Below, in pieces: positions 5,743-44,389 of a stretch of 64,000 nucleotides of DNA. The notes below the pieces were generated by a model. The model made no database searches and was not told where the DNA came from. It saw only the letters and a program-made list of their open reading frames with translations. Position 1 is the first letter of the stretch, and each line of letters opens with the position of its first letter. Source of the stretch: Methanothermococcus okinawensis IH1. Its GTDB lineage: Archaea > AGJL01 > Methanococci > Methanococcales > Methanococcaceae. The translations under genes were made by a program, and so were the position numbers. Where the stretch lies: the NCBI RefSeq assembly GCF_000179575.2, contig NC_015636.1:1589495-1653494 (forward strand), given 5' to 3'.

Positions 5743-6306
5743 ATGAGTATGATAATAGGTATATTAGGTATCCAAGGAGACATTGAGGAGCACGAAGAAA
5801 TGGTTAAAAAAATAAACTGCACTCCAAAAAGAATTAGAACACCCGCTGATTTAGATGATATTGACGCCCTTATTATTCCAGGTGGAGAAAGCACCACCAT
5901 GGGCAAACTTATGAAAAAATATGGTTTTATTGAAGCTTTGAAAAAATCTGATTTTCCAATATTGGGAACATGTGCGGGTATGGTATTACTCTCGAAAGGA
6001 ACTGGAAGGGAACAACCACTTTTAGAGTTAATGGACATAACCATTAAAAGAAACGCCTATGGAAGCCAGAGAGAAAGTTTTGAGGAAGATATTGAATTGG
6101 ATGGAGAAAAAGTCCATGCGGTATTTATCAGAGCTCCTATTGTAGATAAGATATTAAACGATAAAGTTAAAGTTATAGCAAAAGAGGGAGATAATATTGT
6201 TGGTGTAGTGGAAGGTAAATACATGGCAATAGCATTTCACCCGGAACTCTCTGATGATGGATATAAGGTTTATAAATATTTCCTAGATAATGTTGTTGGA
6301 AAATAA
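5743..6306 (+). CDS. pdxT: Pyridoxal 5'-phosphate synthase glutaminase subunit
   Basis: A 187-residue class I glutaminase that releases ammonia from glutamine for the PdxS synthase in vitamin B6 synthesis. Visible motifs are [14 protein letters not shown] at the N-terminus, the oxyanion strand [11 protein letters not shown], the nucleophile Cys in [12 protein letters not shown] (about residue 80) and the His/Glu pair in AIAFHPELS (about residues 168-172). GGTGAAAGT precedes the ATG at 5743. The partner pdxS is not in this window. The length matches the family. Confidence 0.97.
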
Positions 6307-6332: not shown

Positions 6333-9300
6333 TTATTTCTTCAATTCGGTGTATTTTTCAATATATTCATCTATAACCTCTTTATCTACCTTATCTTTTA
6401 TATTTAATGATTCAAGAAGGTTTATAAGGTATTCCTTAACTGCTGGATACTCGGATTCTTCAATATAGTCCATAATCTTCTTAACGATTTTACTTAGAAG
6501 TTTTTTGTCTTCATGTATATACTGGCAGAGCCTTAGAATATCCACAGCTTTCTTAAATATTATCCATGGCTGGTCTTTATCGATATTCATGATAGTATCT
6601 AAAAATGCATATGCAACATCCTTATCACATTCAATAAATTTATTTTTTAATAGATATTCCAAAGCCTCAATAATTTCTGATTTAACATAGATGGATACAT
6701 CACGCTGTAAGAATTTTTTTATGACTATCAATGTGGATTCATCCCCGGGATTATTTATTAAGTTATTTTTCAACCAGTTATCTTTTTTCAGTGCTATTTC
6801 TTCAAGCAATATCAATGCTTTTTCCGATAATAACTCATACCCTTCTAACGAGGCTAATTTTGATAATATATTATATAGATTGGTTAATAACAATTCATTC
6901 AATGGATTATCATTTTTGGAAATTTCTTCAATTAACAAATCCAAAGCCATTATCTTTAAAATTACCATATCTTCATAGTTAAGTATTTGGATAATGGTTT
7001 TTACAATATCGTTAATACTATTGCACCCCATACATTCAAAACTATTCTTTGTAGGAATATATATTATTTTACTGTAATACTCCCATTCTATATTTTTATT
7101 TATATTTATATTTTCAACTTCAAGATTAAACGGGTGTTCTTTTAGATATTCCATTAATTCTCTTTTTTCTTTAATTATGCTCCTACTTTCAGGTTCATTC
7201 ATTTTTTCAAGTATGGATAATGAAAGATTGATATTTTCCTCTGCTACATATTCGTATATTACTAATTCTTTAACCCTATTTAACAATCTATTGCTTATTA
7301 TAAATCCCTCATTAACAAAACTATATAATATTTTTAATTGAGTATTTCTTATTTTAAAGACAGGTTCTCTAATAATACGATATATTATATCCTCCATATC
7401 TTGTGGTAATATAGGATATTTTGATAAATAATCTTTAATAATTTTTTTAGCTGTTTCAGATTTGTCTTTCAATCCAATTATCTCTGGAAGGATAAATATA
7501 ATTTCTTTATAGATATTATTTTCAAAGGCTTTTAAAATCATTTCAATGGAATTATAATCTCCTTTTTTAATATGACGATTTATACCAATTTTAGCAAGTA
7601 ATATAATGGATTTCCTCGTTTCAGGAAATTTTAAATATTTTTTAATTAAATCAACCTGTTCTGTGATGGATTTACTATTGTAATCTAAAAATTCTATATA
7701 TTCTGGGTATTTAATCAACAAATTATCCAATAATTTTTTGCTAATATTCCTTACAAATCTGTGTCTATCCGTTAAATATTTTGTCATAATCGCTGAAATA
7801 ATATTTTTTTCAACTTCTTCTTTTTTAAGAATATTTGGAAAATTCTCTATCAATATATTATAAAATAACAAATATTCAATTCGATTTCCGAAATACCAAT
7901 CATCAAATAAATATGTGGATTTAACAAATACATTATTTGGAATTTTATTATTTAACTCAACATTCATTCTCAATAGCCATAGTCCCATATTTCTTACTAA
8001 ATATACATTATCATAAAGCATATCATTTATCAAATCAAATTTACGAGACCCATAACTAGGTCTTATATATATTAAATTACCCAAATATTTTCCAGCATAG
8101 TATCTATCCAACCAATTTTTTCTTTTCATGTTGATATACAACGATTTAATCAATTTTTGAAACTCTGATATATCCATATCTTCAAGTTCTTTAATAATTC
8201 CTATATCAAAATTAGGAGAACATGTTGCCGAGAAACATTCGTATCTTTTTAATTCATATGCTAAGTATAATCCATTGTAATAACACAAATGCCCCTCATT
8301 CATTATACTTTTTAAATCAATTTTATCAACAATTTCAAATACTTTACGCTTAATATATTCTGATTCTGTGTTTTTAAATAGATAATACAATATTTCAAGA
8401 GAAAATCCTTTTATAACATATTTATCATTAAAATTTTTTAAAATCCTATTAAAGAACATATCCAAATATTCATCCTTAATATGTAGTTTGTCAAACAATA
8501 TTAATCTTTTAAATAAAAACATAGAAGATAGTTTAACCATCCAACTTGGATTATCAAATGATGCTATTATTTTATCCATTAATTGATTGCTTAATTCCTT
8601 ATTTTCTTCCAATATTTGACATAAAACATCACTATGAATGTGTAATGTTGCCATTATCATGGATTTTATCAAATATTCTTCTTCGTCGTTCAGTGCATTT
8701 TTTATAACTTCTAACAGTTCTTCTTTTGAAACCATTTCTTTAAAATAGAGATTATATAACCATTTAAGAAATTTGTAGCGGTCTGACTTCTTAAAGTTAA
8801 AGTTATTGAAAGTATTATTACGATGCTTTAAATACACCATATAATATAGGTTAATTAGGTAGTTTTTATCCAATGTTTTAAATTCTTCGAGGATTTCAAT
8901 GGCAAGCACTTGAAGTATTTTATATCCATATCCATTAGACACCAATACAATTTCAGGGAGGGTATTTGTTAAATGCTCTGGGGTGATTGTTGATATTAAC
9001 CCCAAAGATACCATGGCATAAGTTACCTCATAGGGATTGGATGAATAAAGTTTTAAAGATAATGAATGTATATACCTTACAATAGTATTCACATTCAATG
9101 AGTTTATAATTTGTTTAGCAAATTCTGATGTTGTAGTATTTGGAGAATTAGCCCAAAAATACAGTAAAACAAATATATCTTCATTAATAATGTGATGGTC
9201 TAAAACAAGTTTCTTTATAGAGTTCATTAAATTTATTCTCGTAACCAAGTTATTATCCTGAGCTAATTTTATAATCTGTTCCTCTAACTTCTTAATTTCA

Positions 9301-9416
9301 TTGGCATTATTAATATAACTTAATATCCTTGCAGCTTCAGATTTCTTTTTCCAATCCAATTCACAATATTCCTTAAATAATTTTGAAAGTTCTTCCTTTG
9401 ATGCATCTCTGTCCAT
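6333..9416 (-). CDS. Giant HEAT-like repeat protein, copy A
   Basis: A 1027-residue protein made almost wholly of amphipathic helices of HEAT/ARM character (for example ARILSYINNANEI, AMVSLGLISTIT, VLAIEILEEF). It has no signal peptide, membrane segment or catalytic motif that I can see. The ATG at 9416 follows a good AAGGAGAT Shine-Dalgarno. It is a tandem paralogue of the next gene upstream. Residues about 7-184 and 250-405 are encoded by DNA identical to that copy, whereas the segment between them and the whole C-terminal ~620 residues have diverged. The iterated hexamer GAGCTC, common in the rest of the window, does not occur in this gene, which hints at a separate origin. Function unknown; a superhelical scaffold is the structural inference. 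Confidence 0.75.
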   Translation of the reverse strand: MDRDASKEELSKLFKEYCELDWKKKSEAARILSYINNANEIKKLEEQIIKLAQDNNLVTRINLMNSIKKLVLDHHIINEDIFVLLYFWANSPNTTTSEFAKQIINSLNVNTIVRYIHSLSLKLYSSNPYEVTYAMVSLGLISTITPEHLTNTLPEIVLVSNGYGYKILQVLAIEILEEFKTLDKNYLINLYYMVYLKHRNNTFNNFNFKKSDRYKFLKWLYNLYFKEMVSKEELLEVIKNALNDEEEYLIKSMIMATLHIHSDVLCQILEENKELSNQLMDKIIASFDNPSWMVKLSSMFLFKRLILFDKLHIKDEYLDMFFNRILKNFNDKYVIKGFSLEILYYLFKNTESEYIKRKVFEIVDKIDLKSIMNEGHLCYYNGLYLAYELKRYECFSATCSPNFDIGIIKELEDMDISEFQKLIKSLYINMKRKNWLDRYYAGKYLGNLIYIRPSYGSRKFDLINDMLYDNVYLVRNMGLWLLRMNVELNNKIPNNVFVKSTYLFDDWYFGNRIEYLLFYNILIENFPNILKKEEVEKNIISAIMTKYLTDRHRFVRNISKKLLDNLLIKYPEYIEFLDYNSKSITEQVDLIKKYLKFPETRKSIILLAKIGINRHIKKGDYNSIEMILKAFENNIYKEIIFILPEIIGLKDKSETAKKIIKDYLSKYPILPQDMEDIIYRIIREPVFKIRNTQLKILYSFVNEGFIISNRLLNRVKELVIYEYVAEENINLSLSILEKMNEPESRSIIKEKRELMEYLKEHPFNLEVENININKNIEWEYYSKIIYIPTKNSFECMGCNSINDIVKTIIQILNYEDMVILKIMALDLLIEEISKNDNPLNELLLTNLYNILSKLASLEGYELLSEKALILLEEIALKKDNWLKNNLINNPGDESTLIVIKKFLQRDVSIYVKSEIIEALEYLLKNKFIECDKDVAYAFLDTIMNIDKDQPWIIFKKAVDILRLCQYIHEDKKLLSKIVKKIMDYIEESEYPAVKEYLINLLESLNIKDKVDKEVIDEYIEKYTELKK
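8202..8669 (-). repeat. Identical block 2, copy A (pairs with 11504-11971)
   Basis: This 468-bp stretch matches 11504-11971 with no difference or indel that I could find by eye (constant offset 3302). It encodes the KSMIMATLHIHSDVL to ATCSPNFDI part of the HEAT-like proteins. The flanking DNA is clearly diverged on both sides, as expected for gene conversion between tandem copies. Confidence 0.85.
8865..9397 (-). repeat. Identical block 1, copy A (pairs with 12236-12768)
   Basis: This 533-bp stretch matches 12236-12768 with no difference found by eye (constant offset 3371). It encodes the N-terminal ~178 residues after the first few codons. The two start codons and their 5' flanks differ between the copies. 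Confidence 0.85.
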
Positions 9417-9577
9417 AATATCTCCTTATATATTTATATATATTTATATAATAATATGATGGTGAATTTACAACAATATATCATTACAATTATAATTCTT
9501 ATTTAACATTATAATATCAAAATAATATATCAATAATTGTATTATTATATTTAAATTAAACTATAAAAAATGTAAGA

Positions 9578-12500
9578 TTACAAATTTTTATTTTCAAATT
9601 CAAGAAGTTTTTCAATAACCTCCTCATTAAGTTCTACAATATTGGGTCCACCCATCTCCAACAATTTTTTTAAATAAATAATTAAATAGTCCTTTTTTTC
9701 TTCTTCTTCCATGATATCCATATAATCTGTAAATTTCTTGATAAGGTCATCTAAAAGTTTCTTATCCGTTTGTATATATTGACATGAAAAAATGATATCA
9801 ACTGCATTTTTAAACACTGCCCATGGTTGATTATTATCTATATTTAATATAATATCTACAAAGGTGTATGCCATATCCTTATTGCAAACGATTAATTTAT
9901 TTTTTGATGCATATCCTAAGAAATTCAAAATTTCTATTTTAACACGGGCAGATATGTTTTCAGTTAAGATATATAATATATTGTTTAAAGAATTTTGAGA
10001 ACCCGCATAATCCTTGAAATAATCTATCAAACTATTTTTTAACCAATTATCACGCCTTAAAGATAATTCTTCTAATAACATTAATGCTTTTTTTGATATA
10101 AAATTATATCTTTTATTTACGTATAGTTTTAATAATATAGGCAATATTTCGTCATTATCCAATAATGCATTTAACAATTCTTCATTTTTAGAAATCTCTT
10201 CAGTTAATAAATCTATAATCTTTATCTTCAAAATTACTAAATCTTCAATATTGAGTAACGGTATAAGTGTTTTTACAGCATTATTTAGATTATCTTCTGT
10301 AAATATGTCAAGTATTCCAATTGTGGGGATATATGTTATTTTAATGCAGTATTCCTTCCAATCGGCTTTTTCTAACTCTAAATCTCTTATTGATGTTTTA
10401 AAATATAGCGAATTTTCCATATACTCCATTAATTCTTTTTTTTCCTTAATTATACGCCTACTTTCAAAATCATTTATTTCTTCAAGTATGGATGATGCAA
10501 TATTTAGGTTTTTTTCACTAACGCATTCATATATTACTATTTCTTTGATTTTGTTTAATAGTTCATAGCTTATTATAATTCCTTCCCTAACAAATGCCAA
10601 TAATCTTTTAAGTTTATAAGTTCTAATTGAGATTATTGAGTCGTTAATATTATGAAACAACTGTTTTTCTAAATTTTTTGGAAGTTTTGGATACTTATTT
10701 TTAAATGTATCCACTATCTTTTTAACTATATTGGATTTTTCTTTTATCTGTATGAGCTCATATAAGATATAACTTATTTCTTCATAGGTATTTTCGTCTC
10801 CATCAAATATTTTTTTTAAAGCTATTTCAATAGTGATATAATCTCTTTTTTTAATATAATATTTTAATCTTGTTTTAATAATTATAATTACAGCTTTTCT
10901 TAATTCGGGAACTTTCCAACATTTTTTAAGTAATTCAATTCTTTCAGGAATTGATAAATGATAATAATTTTTAAAAGATTCAAATTCTGGATAATTACAA
11001 GATAATCGTTTATTATTTAACAACATTATACATATATCCTTTACAAATTCATTTTTATCTGTTAGATATCTTGAAGTTATTGCTGAGATAAGTCTTTTTT
11101 TAAGACTTTGGTTTTCTAAAAGATGTGGAAAACTTTTTAATAATGTGTTGTAGAATAACATGTATTCAATCCTGCATTCATAATACCAGTCGTCCAATAA
11201 CGATATTGATTTGATAATAACATCCATTGGTGGTTCAATACCTAACTCCGTAGTCAGTCTTAATATCCAAATCCCCATGCATCTTGTAATATAGTTATTA
11301 TCATCCAATAATGTGTATATTATATCCAATATATTTGATGCATGGCCTGGTCTAGTGTATATCAAATTACCTAGGTATTTTCCAGCATAGTATCTATTTA
11401 ACCATCCGCTAAGCCAGTATTTTTGTTTCACAGATGCATTAATAGACTTGATTACATCATGATATTCAGCAATACTCAGGGTGTTAAATTCACCTATCAG
11501 GGTTATATCAAAATTAGGAGAACATGTTGCCGAGAAACATTCGTATCTTTTTAATTCATATGCTAAGTATAATCCATTGTAATAACACAAATGCCCCTCA
11601 TTCATTATACTTTTTAAATCAATTTTATCAACAATTTCAAATACTTTACGCTTAATATATTCTGATTCTGTGTTTTTAAATAGATAATACAATATTTCAA
11701 GAGAAAATCCTTTTATAACATATTTATCATTAAAATTTTTTAAAATCCTATTAAAGAACATATCCAAATATTCATCCTTAATATGTAGTTTGTCAAACAA
11801 TATTAATCTTTTAAATAAAAACATAGAAGATAGTTTAACCATCCAACTTGGATTATCAAATGATGCTATTATTTTATCCATTAATTGATTGCTTAATTCC
11901 TTATTTTCTTCCAATATTTGACATAAAACATCACTATGAATGTGTAATGTTGCCATTATCATGGATTTTATAAATACATCGTCATCAATATTTAACATTG
12001 TTATCAAATTTACAATAGAATTATTGGATATCCGATTATTGGTATTAACACAATTTAACATAGTCATTAAATTTAAAATGTCTTTTTTACTTATATTTTT
12101 CTTAAAATATATATACAACACATATTCAAGTAAATCACTTTTTTTATTTATATGCGTGATATCAAAATCGTCATATTTAACCTGATTATTATTATATAAA
12201 TCATAAATCGAAAAAATGACTTTATTAAAAAGATATTTATCCAATGTTTTAAATTCTTCGAGGATTTCAATGGCAAGCACTTGAAGTATTTTATATCCAT
12301 ATCCATTAGACACCAATACAATTTCAGGGAGGGTATTTGTTAAATGCTCTGGGGTGATTGTTGATATTAACCCCAAAGATACCATGGCATAAGTTACCTC
12401 ATAGGGATTGGATGAATAAAGTTTTAAAGATAATGAATGTATATACCTTACAATAGTATTCACATTCAATGAGTTTATAATTTGTTTAGCAAATTCTGAT

Positions 12501-12787
12501 GTTGTAGTATTTGGAGAATTAGCCCAAAAATACAGTAAAACAAATATATCTTCATTAATAATGTGATGGTCTAAAACAAGTTTCTTTATAGAGTTCATTA
12601 AATTTATTCTCGTAACCAAGTTATTATCCTGAGCTAATTTTATAATCTGTTCCTCTAACTTCTTAATTTCATTGGCATTATTAATATAACTTAATATCCT
12701 TGCAGCTTCAGATTTCTTTTTCCAATCCAATTCACAATATTCCTTAAATAATTTTGAAAGTTCTTCCTGCATCATCTTTTCATACAT
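9578..12787 (-). CDS. Giant HEAT-like repeat protein, copy B
   Basis: A 1069-residue paralogue of the downstream gene, 161 bp away in the same direction. It starts at the ATG at 12787 behind AGGGGACTTTT. It shares identical DNA blocks encoding residues 7 to about 183 and 272 to about 427. Between them lies a Lys/Asn/Ile-rich segment (88 codons) that replaces a different 65-codon segment in copy A. The C-terminal ~640 residues align with copy A only at protein level, with many substitutions. Helical repeats dominate throughout; I see no enzyme motif, signal or membrane segment. Only one GAGCTC (near 10754) occurs in 3.2 kb. Function unknown; an adaptable binding scaffold is inference. Confidence 0.75.
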   Translation of the reverse strand: MYEKMMQEELSKLFKEYCELDWKKKSEAARILSYINNANEIKKLEEQIIKLAQDNNLVTRINLMNSIKKLVLDHHIINEDIFVLLYFWANSPNTTTSEFAKQIINSLNVNTIVRYIHSLSLKLYSSNPYEVTYAMVSLGLISTITPEHLTNTLPEIVLVSNGYGYKILQVLAIEILEEFKTLDKYLFNKVIFSIYDLYNNNQVKYDDFDITHINKKSDLLEYVLYIYFKKNISKKDILNLMTMLNCVNTNNRISNNSIVNLITMLNIDDDVFIKSMIMATLHIHSDVLCQILEENKELSNQLMDKIIASFDNPSWMVKLSSMFLFKRLILFDKLHIKDEYLDMFFNRILKNFNDKYVIKGFSLEILYYLFKNTESEYIKRKVFEIVDKIDLKSIMNEGHLCYYNGLYLAYELKRYECFSATCSPNFDITLIGEFNTLSIAEYHDVIKSINASVKQKYWLSGWLNRYYAGKYLGNLIYTRPGHASNILDIIYTLLDDNNYITRCMGIWILRLTTELGIEPPMDVIIKSISLLDDWYYECRIEYMLFYNTLLKSFPHLLENQSLKKRLISAITSRYLTDKNEFVKDICIMLLNNKRLSCNYPEFESFKNYYHLSIPERIELLKKCWKVPELRKAVIIIIKTRLKYYIKKRDYITIEIALKKIFDGDENTYEEISYILYELIQIKEKSNIVKKIVDTFKNKYPKLPKNLEKQLFHNINDSIISIRTYKLKRLLAFVREGIIISYELLNKIKEIVIYECVSEKNLNIASSILEEINDFESRRIIKEKKELMEYMENSLYFKTSIRDLELEKADWKEYCIKITYIPTIGILDIFTEDNLNNAVKTLIPLLNIEDLVILKIKIIDLLTEEISKNEELLNALLDNDEILPILLKLYVNKRYNFISKKALMLLEELSLRRDNWLKNSLIDYFKDYAGSQNSLNNILYILTENISARVKIEILNFLGYASKNKLIVCNKDMAYTFVDIILNIDNNQPWAVFKNAVDIIFSCQYIQTDKKLLDDLIKKFTDYMDIMEEEEKKDYLIIYLKKLLEMGGPNIVELNEEVIEKLLEFENKNL
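11504..11971 (-). repeat. Identical block 2, copy B
   Basis: Partner of 8202-8669. The identity stops abruptly at both edges: downstream sequence switches to copy-specific DNA after GGATTTTAT, and upstream before TATATCA. Confidence 0.85.
12236..12768 (-). repeat. Identical block 1, copy B
   Basis: Partner of 8865-9397. The shared DNA ends six codons after the start of each gene, so each copy keeps its own promoter, ribosome-binding site and first residues. Confidence 0.85.
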
Positions 12788-12961: not shown

Positions 12962-13714
12962 TTGACTAAAATAATAGCAATAAGTGGAAAAGGCGGCACT
13001 GGCAAAACTATGTTTTCTACATTACTTGTAAAGGCATTATCAAAAAAGACCCATAACATGCTTGTTGTTGATGCTGACCCTGATTCGAACCTGCCTGAGA
13101 CACTTGGAGTTGAAGTAGAACTAACTATTGGAGACATTAGGGAAGAATTGAAACAGTTAGTAGCGGATGATAAATTACCTGCGGGCATTTCAAAACAGGA
13201 TTATTTACTGGGAAAAATATATGAGATTATAGTAGAAACAGAGAATTTTGACTTGCTTGTTATGGGAAGACCAGAAGGAAGCGGATGTTATTGTAGTGTA
13301 AATAACTGGTTAAGGCAAATTATAGATAATCTTGCAAAATCTTACGATTATGTAATTATAGATACAGAGGCAGGATTGGAGCATTTGAGCAGAAGAACAA
13401 CTCAAAATGTAGATACAATGATAGTGGTTAGTGATGCTTCTAAGAGAGGATTGGGGACTGCCAAAAGAATAAAAAAACTTGCTAATGAACTTGAAATAAA
13501 ATTTAAAGAGATATATGTTGTTGCAAATAAAGTAAATGATGAAAACAAAGATATGGTGGAAAAAAACGCCAAAGAATTGGGATTAAATTTGATAGGAAAA
13601 CTTCCTTATAATGAAGAAATATCAAAATACGATTTAATAGGCAAACCTTTGTTTGATATAGATGAAAATAATGAAGTTTATAAAAAGGTCGAAGAAATTG
13701 CTAAATCGCTATGA
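12962..13714 (+). CDS. cooC: CooC-type nickel-insertion ATPase (MinD/ParA fold)
   Basis: A 250-residue P-loop ATPase. It has the deviant Walker A KGGTGKTMFSTLL, the VVDADPDSN switch, and the GRPEGSGCYCSVN segment whose Cys-x-Cys pair near residues 110-112 is the hallmark of CooC/AcsF proteins. These dimerise through that pair and help load nickel into CO dehydrogenase or acetyl-CoA synthase. The start is the TTG at 12962, preceded by GGTGATAAT. No CODH gene is in the window, so the client enzyme is inferred from the family. Confidence 0.9.
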   Translation: MTKIIAISGKGGTGKTMFSTLLVKALSKKTHNMLVVDADPDSNLPETLGVEVELTIGDIREELKQLVADDKLPAGISKQDYLLGKIYEIIVETENFDLLVMGRPEGSGCYCSVNNWLRQIIDNLAKSYDYVIIDTEAGLEHLSRRTTQNVDTMIVVSDASKRGLGTAKRIKKLANELEIKFKEIYVVANKVNDENKDMVEKNAKELGLNLIGKLPYNEEISKYDLIGKPLFDIDENNEVYKKVEEIAKSL

Positions 13715-31500: not shown

Positions 31501-31560
31501 CGGTGTCAGCTCGCCCATCTTTCATCATAAATCAGAAGCTACTCCGGTCATCATCCACCA
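31501..31560 (-). ncRNA. C/D box sRNA (2'-O-methylation guide)
   Basis: Read on the minus strand, the element shows C box ATGATGA (31554-31548), D' box CTGA (31535-31532), C' box ATGATGA (31528-31522) and D box CTGA (31509-31506). A perfect GGTG/CACC terminal stem closes it (31559-31556 with 31505-31502). Both guides are exactly 12 nt: CCGGAGTAGCTT (D') and AAGATGGGCGAG (D). The N+5 rule predicts methylation of U in AAGCUACUCCGG and of the second C in CUCGCCCAUCUU; I could not assign the target RNAs. The patch is markedly G+C-rich within A/T-rich DNA, lying between the divergent radical SAM and thiL genes. Confidence 0.92.
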
Positions 31561-39906: not shown

Positions 39907-42900
39907 GTTAAAAATCAGACCATTGATGGATGGAAATCGCAATAATGGAGCTCAGGCAGACATCTACCAATATGGTTAAAATCAGACCATTGATGGATGG
40001 AAATAAAAATTACCCCCTTGAAAAAAATATGCAAACATGCAAACCGAGTTAAAATCAGACCATTGATGGATGGAAATTGAAATACGCAGATACTCCTATT
40101 ATTTGTATATCTCCGTTAAAATCAGACCATTGATGGATGGAAATTTGCCTTTTCTATCAGGGCCTCTATTTCTGTAAATTGTTAAAATCAGACCATTGAT
40201 GGATGGAAATTGGAAGCCACAGCAAAATATGGGTTTGCTGGTAAAGTGTTAAAATCAGACCATTGATGGATGGAAATTAAAAATAGCAGGATATGATAAA
40301 AATAATGCACCCAATCGTTAAAATCAGACCATTGATGGATGGAAATCATTTATGGAGACGCCACAGAGCATAAAAATGAAAGCTGTTAAAATCAGACCAT
40401 TGATGGATGGAAATTCAATTTTGATAATCAAGCAATACATATAAAGGTTAAAATCAGACCATTGATGGATGGAAATAATTATAATGAGGTTAGGGAAGAG
40501 GCTTATTCTCTTTGTTAAAATCAGACCATTGATGGATGGAAATCATACATTTTCGATAATAAAACAAGTGGAACAGTAAAGTTAAAATCAGACCATTGAT
40601 GGATGGAAATTTATTATAATTTAATAAGTGTAGGATGTGGTTTTCCAAGATAGTTAAAATCAGACCATTGATGGATGGAAATTATATTATAGAATGCCCT
40701 AATTCTATGCATTCTTTATCGTTAAAATCAGACCATTGATGGATGGAAATTGTTCTTTAAAGCGACTTCGCCCGATTCGTGGTATTGGGTTAAAATCAGA
40801 CCATTGATGGATGGAAATCTTATCTATCGATTTAGATAAGGTTATTGGAAAAGTTAAAATCAGACCATTGATGGATGGAAATCTGTAAATGACTTTATAA
40901 TCCCCGTGTGTTCCATAGCGTTAAAATCAGACCATTGATGGATGGAAATTAGTTAATAGTTAAGGGTTCTATCTATTGGAATATATTTCCGTTAAAATCA
41001 GACCATTGATGGATGGAAATAAAGAGGTATCTTTCAACTCAGGAAGTTCATTTGCAGGTTAAAATCAGACCATTGATGGATGGAAATAGAGATAAAACAG
41101 GATTAAATCCTTTTCTATACAAAAGTTAAAATCAGACCATTGATGGATGGAAATTTTAGGAATCCTGATGACTTTGCAGACGACTATGAAGTTAAAATCA
41201 GACCATTGATGGATGGAAATTATACTAATATCTTAAAAAAAGAATATAAATATATGTTAAAATCAGACCATTGATGGATGGAAATATACCATTTCGTTAT
41301 TTTATACCGTCCTGCTGCTACCGTTAAAATCAGACCATTGATGGATGGAAATATGTGAGGAAATACGAAAAGAGGAATACGGCAAAATCAGTTAAAATCA
41401 GACCATTGATGGATGGAAATTCAAAAAGGGCAAAACATCATGGAAATGGAATTCAAAGTTAAAATCAGACCATTGATGGATGGAAATAACAGATAAAACG
41501 GTTGCGGTAAGAGAAATTGCAAAAATGTTAAAATCAGACCATTGATGGATGGAAATATAACATATCAATAGTAAATAATGAATTTTATAATGCGTTAAAA
41601 TCAGACCATTGATGGATGGAAATTCTCTTAAAGCAGATAAAAACTCATCAGCAGGGATTTGTGTTAAAATCAGACCATTGATGGATGGAAATAAAGTAAA
41701 AACGGGGGCGTATTACATTTTACATCAAAGTTAAAATCAGACCATTGATGGATGGAAATTCTTTCATTTTTTTAGAGAGGGATGATAATACCATATCGTT
41801 AAAATCAGACCATTGATGGATGGAAATAAAAAGAGCTTTAAGGTATTTATACAGAAGTTTAAGAAAAATGTTAAAATCAGACCATTGATGGATGGAAATT
41901 TTTATAGTCAATATCTGAATTTATTAAGTCTTTTAACTGTTAAAATCAGACCATTGATGGATGGAAATTTTTTTACAAAGCACCAGTCTAAACAACATAC
42001 GACCTAGTTAAAATCAGACCATTGATGGATGGAAATAAAAAGAGCTTTAAGGTATTTATACAGAAGTTTAAGAAAAATGTTAAAATCAGACCATTGATGG
42101 ATGGAAATTTTTATAGTCAATATCTGAATTTATTAAGTCTTTTAACTGTTAAAATCAGACCATTGATGGATGGAAATTTTTTTACAAAGCACCAGTCTAA
42201 ACAACATACGACCTAGTTAAAATCAGACCATTGATGGATGGAAATATTACACTCTATGACACTCGATGCGACATAGGAAACAGTTAAAATCAGACCATTG
42301 ATGGATGGAAATCATATTTTAACATCTTTTATAGTTATATTCTTTTTGCGTTAGTTAAAATCAGACCATTGATGGATGGAAATATATACTGGGAAAATGT
42401 GGATGGTGTGTATTATATCGTTAAAATCAGACCATTGATGGATGGAAATCAAATATTTTAGTTTCAATACTTTCTGGTGGAATATGTTAAAATCAGACCA
42501 TTGATGGATGGAAATTTCTTGCATCTTTGCTATACGAAAAAGAGCAAGAAAGTTAAAATCAGACCATTGATGGATGGAAATGAGATGGATATACCTATTC
42601 TATATATTTATATATTCTAAATAGTTAAAATCAGACCATTGATGGATGGAAATGTTTTTCATTAAGATAGTAAGAAACCTTGAAGGGTTAAAATCAGACC
42701 ATTGATGGATGGAAATCTCAATAATGAGGTGGGGGTGTTTTGTGGAGATAAGTGTTTTGTTAAAATCAGACCATTGATGGATGGAAATAATGGTTCAAAG
42801 GTGTTTGATTTCTTTGATGATTTTAATGAAGTTAAAATCAGACCATTGATGGATGGAAATGGACATAAGAAGTTCTTTTCTTTCAATGATAAAATTTGTT

Positions 42901-44338
42901 AAAATCAGACCATTGATGGATGGAAATTATTTAGATACTATTTATTGAATACAAAACGAATAGTTAAAATCAGACCATTGATGGATGGAAATAACTTTTT
43001 TAACAATCCACATAACATAATGTCCATTGTTAAAATCAGACCATTGATGGATGGAAATGAAAATAATTGTGCCTAAAATCATTAAGCGCTTCATTTAGTT
43101 AAAATCAGACCATTGATGGATGGAAATACGTGTTCAAATATATTCTAAAATCCTCTTTCTATGAGTTAAAATCAGACCATTGATGGATGGAAATTTGATG
43201 GATGGCAATGATGAGGTTAATCCTCGGAGCCTGTTAAAATCAGACCATTGATGGATGGAAATAGATGGATATTTACTTACAAATGTGTTTTTTGAAAGTT
43301 AAAATCAGACCATTGATGGATGGAAATTGTCATTAAAGGAGCTTGTAGATAATAAGTTAATACGTTAAAATCAGACCATTGATGGATGGAAATTCATGTT
43401 TATTATATCTTCTTTTACATAATCGTAGAGTTAAAATCAGACCATTGATGGATGGAAATTATCTTTTACTATATTATAATATATTATACAGCTGTGTAGT
43501 TAAAATCAGACCATTGATGGATGGAAATTGGAGGGCATATTAGATTTTGGTAGTTATTATATTATGTTAAAATCAGACCATTGATGGATGGAAATTTTTT
43601 TAATATTTTCATTTTCTTCAACCTCTTTTTTAGTGTTAAAATCAGACCATTGATGGATGGAAATGTTTGTTCATTAGTCCCATCCGTGACCTTTAAGTAT
43701 AAAGTTAAAATCAGACCATTGATGGATGGAAATTAATAATATGTTTTTTTTCCTCTCTTTCAGTTATGTGGTTAAAATCAGACCATTGATGGATGGAAAT
43801 AAACAGACTGAAAAGATTGCAAATATTATTAATGAGTTAAAATCAGACCATTGATGGATGGAAATCATTTTATATTAACAACATTGGCATTATTGATGAT
43901 AGGTTAAAATCAGACCATTGATGGATGGAAATCAACATGAGGCGGTTAATAATTTTATAAACACATATAGTTAAAATCAGACCATTGATGGATGGAAATT
44001 TAATATATCATCATTTATATTCTTTCTTTTTTGCCCGATATGCGTTAAAATCAGACCATTGATGGATGGAAATGGCAACAAGATAGATTTCTCAAACAAT
44101 TTTACAAACGTTAAAATCAGACCATTGATGGATGGAAATTCATATTATATAAGATACCCCTCAATGTTGTGGATAGTTAAAATCAGACCATTGATGGATG
44201 GAAACTTAAATGTAAGTAAATTTAATGTTAAAATTGATTATAGTTAAAATCAGACCATTGATGGATGGAAACTATAATTTTATTTAAAAAATATAATAAA
44301 ATTAAAAAGTTAAAATCAGACCATTGATGGATGGAAAT
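39907..44338 (+). CRISPR. CRISPR array, 66 repeats and 65 spacers
   Basis: I located 66 copies of a 30-nt repeat that starts GTTAAAATCAG, has ACCATTGATG in the middle and ends GATGGAAAT. Start-to-start spacing is 62-74 bp, so spacers are 32-44 nt, mostly 36-39. The first repeat (39907-39937) has one extra A in the A-run; repeats 64 and 65 end in C instead of T, as expected for the leader-distal end. The repeat resembles those of other Methanococcales. Leader and degenerate end agree on plus-strand transcription. No cas gene is in the window. Short reading frames through the array are repeat artefacts. Confidence 0.99.
41798..42215 (+). repeat. Tandem duplication of three repeat-spacer units in the CRISPR array
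   Basis: The 209-bp block 41798-42006 (repeats 29-31 with their spacers) is followed at once by an identical block 42007-42215 (repeats 32-34). All three spacers match base for base. This is an unequal-recombination or slippage duplication between repeats, not new spacer uptake. Confidence 0.95.
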
Positions 44339-44389
44339 ATTTATTTGTGATTAATAATTATAAAAAAAGATAGAGAATAAGGGGAGCAT

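Follow-up and report, generated by a model that had tools for sequence, protein, structure and literature searches.

Evidence for recurrent, segment-limited gene conversion between two old HEAT-like paralogues of Methanothermococcus okinawensis and its relatives

Introduction

Concerted evolution of prokaryotic protein-coding paralogues has been reported to be rare and to concern mostly conserved core genes. Long-lasting, recurrent cases have been described for 26 genes, seven of which are archaeal: mtmB, mtmC, mtbB, mtbC, mtrA, glnB and the archaeal histone gene (PMC6053082). The family dealt with here is not included in that set. In the Methanococcales and Methanomicrobiales, mtrA-1 and mtrA-2 are old paralogues subject to recurrent conversion limited to one domain, in a study that also covered M. 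okinawensis IH1; the reason proposed for the conversion is that shared interfaces within one complex are kept matched (PMC4632066). Gene conversion has also been described as a means of equalising the genome copies of polyploid archaea (PMC11276520).

The present work deals with a 64,000-nucleotide stretch of M. okinawensis IH1 (assembly GCF_000179575.2, contig NC_015636.1, positions 1,589,495 to 1,653,494 of the forward strand), hereafter the window; coordinates are given within it unless a genome is named. It contains two large neighbouring paralogues, A and B, in which stretches of identical DNA alternate with strongly diverged DNA. Relatives are designated by genome numbers (G022, G028 and so on), and their family members by p1 when related to A and p2 when related to B.

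Results

The locus and its protein family

Both genes lie on the minus strand, with B preceding A in the direction of transcription. ORF A (6333-9416) encodes a predicted alpha-solenoid (HEAT-like) protein of 1027 aa and ORF B (9578-12787) a paralogue of 1069 aa. Both frames are intact and each has unique flanks, in a near-complete genome of two replicons (1,662,525 and 14,930 bp). The pair is bordered on the side of A by a PdxT-like glutaminase gene (5743-6306, plus strand) and on the side of B by a gene for a CooC-like P-loop ATPase (12962-13714, plus strand). These two conserved genes were considered as partners of A and B and rejected: since both stay in place in genomes where A and B are missing, they are landmarks and not partners. 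Elsewhere in the window, a large CRISPR-like array (39907-44340) holds at least 51 copies of the repeat GTTAAAATCAGACCATTGATGGATGGAAAT and includes a 209 bp tandem duplication (41788-41996 and 41997-42205, 98% identical) that corresponds to a duplicated run of spacers. A match to the C/D-box sRNA sR2 (RF01139, 54.7 bits) was found on the minus strand at 31504-31558.

The term HEAT-like, applied to both proteins by a first-pass annotation of the DNA, is appropriate for the family, 10 of its 19 members matching Pfam HEAT_2 (best 1.3e-10); A and B themselves fall under the Pfam cut-off. The family has no Pfam matches beyond those at the level of the repeats. No NCBIfam model scored above its own cut-off for either protein, and the PADLOC defence models gave no match. 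An archaeal HEAT-repeat protein with a known structure, 2db0, is matched by the family profile at E=6e-6 and at the level of the repeats only. An AlphaFold (AF2) model, weak and built from an alignment of the window proteins and one fragment only, is nearly all-helical with a mean pLDDT of 63. In Foldseek it comes closest to CAND1, importins and other HEAT/ARM solenoids, with TM-scores below 0.2 for nearly all matches. These results support the prediction of a HEAT-like solenoid and nothing finer. A literature search on the function of the family returned nothing relevant.

Two identical blocks within diverged genes

Block 1 covers 533 bp (8865-9397 in A and 12236-12768 in B, coding nucleotides 20-552 of both genes, residues 8-184 approximately of A). 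Block 2 covers 468 bp (8202-8669 in A, coding nucleotides 748-1215, residues 250-405 approximately; 11504-11971 in B, coding nucleotides 817-1284). The identity that the first-pass annotation had perceived in these blocks is exact: both are maximal exact matches with zero mismatches. Outside them the two genes are about 50-70% alike, and at the block edges identity falls straight from 100% to this background. The segment between the blocks measures 195 bp in A (8670-8864) and 264 bp in B (11972-12235) and differs as strongly as had been claimed (pN 0.39, pS 0.67). Third-position identity amounts to 1.00 in the blocks, 0.41 in the inter-block segment and 0.52 in the 3' part, with corresponding dS values of 0, 1.7 and 1.4. 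The 3' parts (6333-8201 in A, residues 406-1027 approximately; 9578-11503 in B) are likewise strongly different and sharply delimited, with the nuance that they still align at about 45-48% amino-acid identity and are therefore homologous and diverged, not unrelated. All of these features lie on the minus strand.

In a codon-permutation test of A against B the best segment scored 811, the maximum of 1000 permutations being 177; no comparable excess was obtained for orthologue pairs between genomes. Neither GC nor GC3 is elevated in the blocks of M. okinawensis, where GC-biased conversion is thus not apparent; in G022, GC3 is slightly raised in block 2 alone (0.40 versus 0.30-0.34 in the C part). 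A stretch of about 35 bp in block 2 of A (query nt 29-62) recurs at the same coordinates in matches of 81% to some seven or eight other genomic sites. These matches probably represent an element recurring elsewhere, with a chance resemblance to the block.

Orthology outside the blocks

The tree of the C part joins A to the p1 copies from G028 and G022 (86/87). B is joined to the p2 copies from G028, G022 and G027 (99/99). A forced clade of A and B is rejected (AU test, p=4e-6), as is a forced clade of p1 and p2 of G022 (p=2e-33). Synteny matches this tree: A and p1 stand beside pdxT, B and p2 beside the CooC-like ATPase gene. The order in M. okinawensis is pdxT-A-B-CooC, and G033 carries a single family copy between pdxT and the CooC-like gene. 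In G028, p1 and p2 are separated by about 836 kb; in G022, p1 (by pdxT) and p2 (by CooC) are found on different contigs. Taken together, the C-part tree and the synteny indicate that A and B are old orthologous lineages, issued from a duplication that predates the split between okinawensis-like and G022/G028-like species.

A third arrangement of the flanks, devoid of both A and B, is displayed by G030 (L085, L096), where CooC lies by c26 and pdxT by c17. Breakpoints of rearrangement between species thus fall at the sites of A and B. When G030 was included in the comparison, the rearrangement that separated p1 from p2 could not be reduced to a simple inversion.

Homogenisation of the same blocks in relatives

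The corresponding segments are also homogenised in other genomes. Between p1 and p2 of G022, DNA identity reaches 93-96% in the block 1 core and 94-100% in block 2, versus 31-60% elsewhere, and dS is 0.18 and 0.07 in blocks 1 and 2, respectively, and saturated elsewhere. By comparison, dS between orthologues of G022 and G028 is 0.9 or more. The G022 tracts identified by segment search correspond to okinawensis residues 11-82 and 259-377, each lying within one of the tracts of okinawensis itself, 7-184 and 250-405 (p about 0.012 for random placement). The right edge of block 1 varies with the lineage, lying at residue 184 in okinawensis and at residue 82 in G022. In G028, p1 and p2 are 82-83% identical in the block 1 core and 67-83% in block 2; the synonymous sites of block 2 are saturated, its proteins are 76-78% alike versus 30% elsewhere, and no recent conversion is seen. 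Tandem pairs of the family in Methanococcus show no blocks of raised identity.

In trees of the blocks, copies cluster by genome and not by orthologue, and orthologue clades are rejected for block 2 (p=8e-5 and 1.5e-4) and for the block 1 core (p=0.013 and 3e-4). The C parts of G022 and G027 differ by a dS of 0.33; since the block dS within G022 is lower, conversion in G022 came after the split from G027, and therefore also after the physical separation of p1 and p2. In the block tree, the copies of G022, G028 and G027 all cluster apart from those of okinawensis, which implies at least one earlier round of conversion. Paralogues of one genome are thus closer to each other than either is to its orthologue, at synonymous sites as well, after a duplication that predates speciation, and the process recurs: in okinawensis, in G022 and in an older round common to G022, G028 and G027. 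The proposal that chosen parts only had undergone recent gene conversion is accordingly borne out, the same parts having been converted again in other species. The MAG contigs of G026 and G027 stop inside blocks and that of G029 just past block 1, which is suggestive of the effect expected of exact repeats on short-read assembly. In L095 (G029:C6), a fragment resembling a TnpB-type transposon protein (2491-2958) lies by pdxT at the expected start of A, and the contig ends soon after.

Evolutionary rate of the blocks

Among unconverted relatives, mean amino-acid identity is 23% in the block 2 region and 33-37% in block 1, as compared to 34% and 27% in the first and second halves of the C part. 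Between A of okinawensis and p1 of G028 (L004), dN is 0.57 in block 2 and 0.49 in the C part. Between genera, conservation of the block 1 core is somewhat above average (dN 0.26 versus 0.49), and the length of the inter-block segment, like its sequence, varies throughout. Block 2 is identical between the paralogues, yet it is among the fastest-evolving regions of the family between species. Because the region is fast in unconverted relatives, its identity in A and B is not mere conservation.

Distribution of the family

Among 36 genomes of the order, the family is limited to the Methanococcaceae and is patchy within them. In G023, pdxT immediately adjoins the CooC-like gene, with neither A nor B in between. 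Cleanly empty sites for p1 (c26-pdxT) and p2 (CooC-c17) alike occur in G024, G025 and G032, which form one clade next to G028 and G022/G027. G030 lacks A and B as well. A and B are accessory genes. As two unlinked genes are absent together, this distribution suggests that A/p1 and B/p2 function jointly, the independent losses being few, as one clade only has the arrangement with separated genes.

Other members were encountered. That of G035 (L057, G035:C1:553000-572999, 6658-9668) is split into two reading frames with further stops and is a decaying copy. A more distant relative of about 981-1024 aa, outside the pair, occurs in G015-G020 (e.g. G017:C1:514016-514597 and G016:C2:337648-340512).

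Discussion

The block trees, the dS values and the synteny point very strongly to recurrent, segment-limited ectopic gene conversion between A and B, a form of concerted evolution. The process may be summarized as follows. A pair of HEAT-type solenoid paralogues arose before the divergence of okinawensis-like from G022/G028-like species, and ectopic conversion has since repeatedly rewritten the same two N-terminal segments by copying one gene onto the other, the latest round in M. okinawensis leaving no difference in either block. The short segment between the blocks and the C-terminal 60% have gone on evolving as two separate lineages. As the most likely reason, A and B would act in one accessory system in which their N-terminal surfaces must fit either each other or a common partner that changes fast. 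Tracts of conversion would be retained where they keep these surfaces matched, and those that erase the specialised C-terminal parts would be lost.

Taken as a whole, this explanation, which couples recurrent block conversion with selection for matched N-terminal surfaces in one accessory system, is the one that we favor, and we regard it as somewhat probable. The functional reason for the conversion, namely matched surfaces within one system, is put forward more tentatively and falls a little short of probable. Counting against the selective step are G028, without recent conversion, and the Methanococcus tandem pairs, without blocks; in addition, the more conserved block 1 core is open to a purely neutral feedback, and the right edge of that block depends on the lineage.

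Such a neutral feedback is a serious possibility, although we consider it improbable on balance. Conversion needs identity: segments that are still similar would keep converting while those that have drifted would escape for good, and the blocks would be functionless leftover islands of an identical duplication. The sharp edges, the tract extents that vary by lineage, the loss of conversion in G028 once the copies had diverged and the moderate conservation of the block 1 core between genera all agree with it. The process itself is also known, from the equalisation of genome copies in polyploid archaea (PMC11276520) and from mtrA in M. okinawensis itself (PMC4632066). However, leftover islands should be the slowest-evolving parts of the genes, whereas few regions evolve as fast as that of block 2 in unconverted relatives. 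Moreover, at least two lineages have kept these two islands despite deep divergence and the genomic separation of the copies.

The mosaic had also been taken as a possible sign of cassette-like exchange within a diversifying recognition scaffold, with the blocks as a constant framework and the other segments as exchangeable recognition modules, in the manner of antigenic variation. The layout within one genome and an inter-block segment that is variable in every relative would fit, but this alternative is very improbable. The search for further silent cassettes that had been recommended returned neither cassettes nor extra block copies in the M. okinawensis genome, where only A and B are present. 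The segments outside the blocks follow old orthologous lineages with strong support and are not shuffled alleles; the process makes the copies alike, not diverse. On the scale of species, the presumed roles of uniform blocks and variable segments are largely reversed, given the rate of block 2.

An assembly collapse had been named as a refuter of the mosaic. Perfect identity over 1 kb in total, as read from an assembly, could indeed result from repeat collapse or consensus copying; this is nevertheless very unlikely, as independent assemblies show homogenisation of these blocks with real substitutions, at 93-100% or 72-83% identity, and as the intact frames and unique flanks belong to a near-complete genome of two replicons. 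Purifying selection alone, without DNA exchange, could account for the block proteins of G028, which stay similar at saturated dS, but it deserves hardly any credence in view of synonymous sites that are identical in okinawensis and nearly so in G022, and of blocks that evolve between species about as fast as the rest.

Beyond recurrent conversion and matched surfaces, a bolder reading may be voiced, which we regard as doubtful. In a two-protein accessory solenoid system, selection might use ectopic conversion as a coordination device, so that a fast-evolving binding surface of the two proteins changes in lock-step between species, each successful change being copied across, even between genes far apart in the genome, and the effector ends remain distinct.

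Comparison with known systems

The all-helical solenoid architecture predicted by the model resembles that of HEAT/ARM scaffolds such as CAND1, importins, the condensin HEAT subunits and archaeal 2db0, and no specific relation follows from a low-confidence model and a sequence match at the repeat level. The closest precedent is the mtrA pair, with which A and B share an old paralogy, a limited converted region, a paralogue-specific remainder and the same proposed reason. In contrast to A and B, mtrA encodes a core conserved enzyme subunit, forms a tandem pair and has one converted domain; A and B are accessory, have two blocks, one of them in a fast region, and conversion has continued after genomic separation. 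As in the genes of the wider prokaryotic set (PMC6053082), the A/B paralogues of several species resemble each other more than either resembles its orthologue, and synteny proves the orthology; unlike A and B, the archaeal genes of that set have known core functions. Four features are new with respect to known cases of conversion: two separate blocks are affected, the genes are accessory, a converted region evolves fast, and the process persists after the copies have been separated in the genome. The pair marks a Methanococcaceae family whose two members are probably functional partners, and constitutes a clean natural experiment on what limits conversion tracts, a recombination threshold or selection for matched interfaces.
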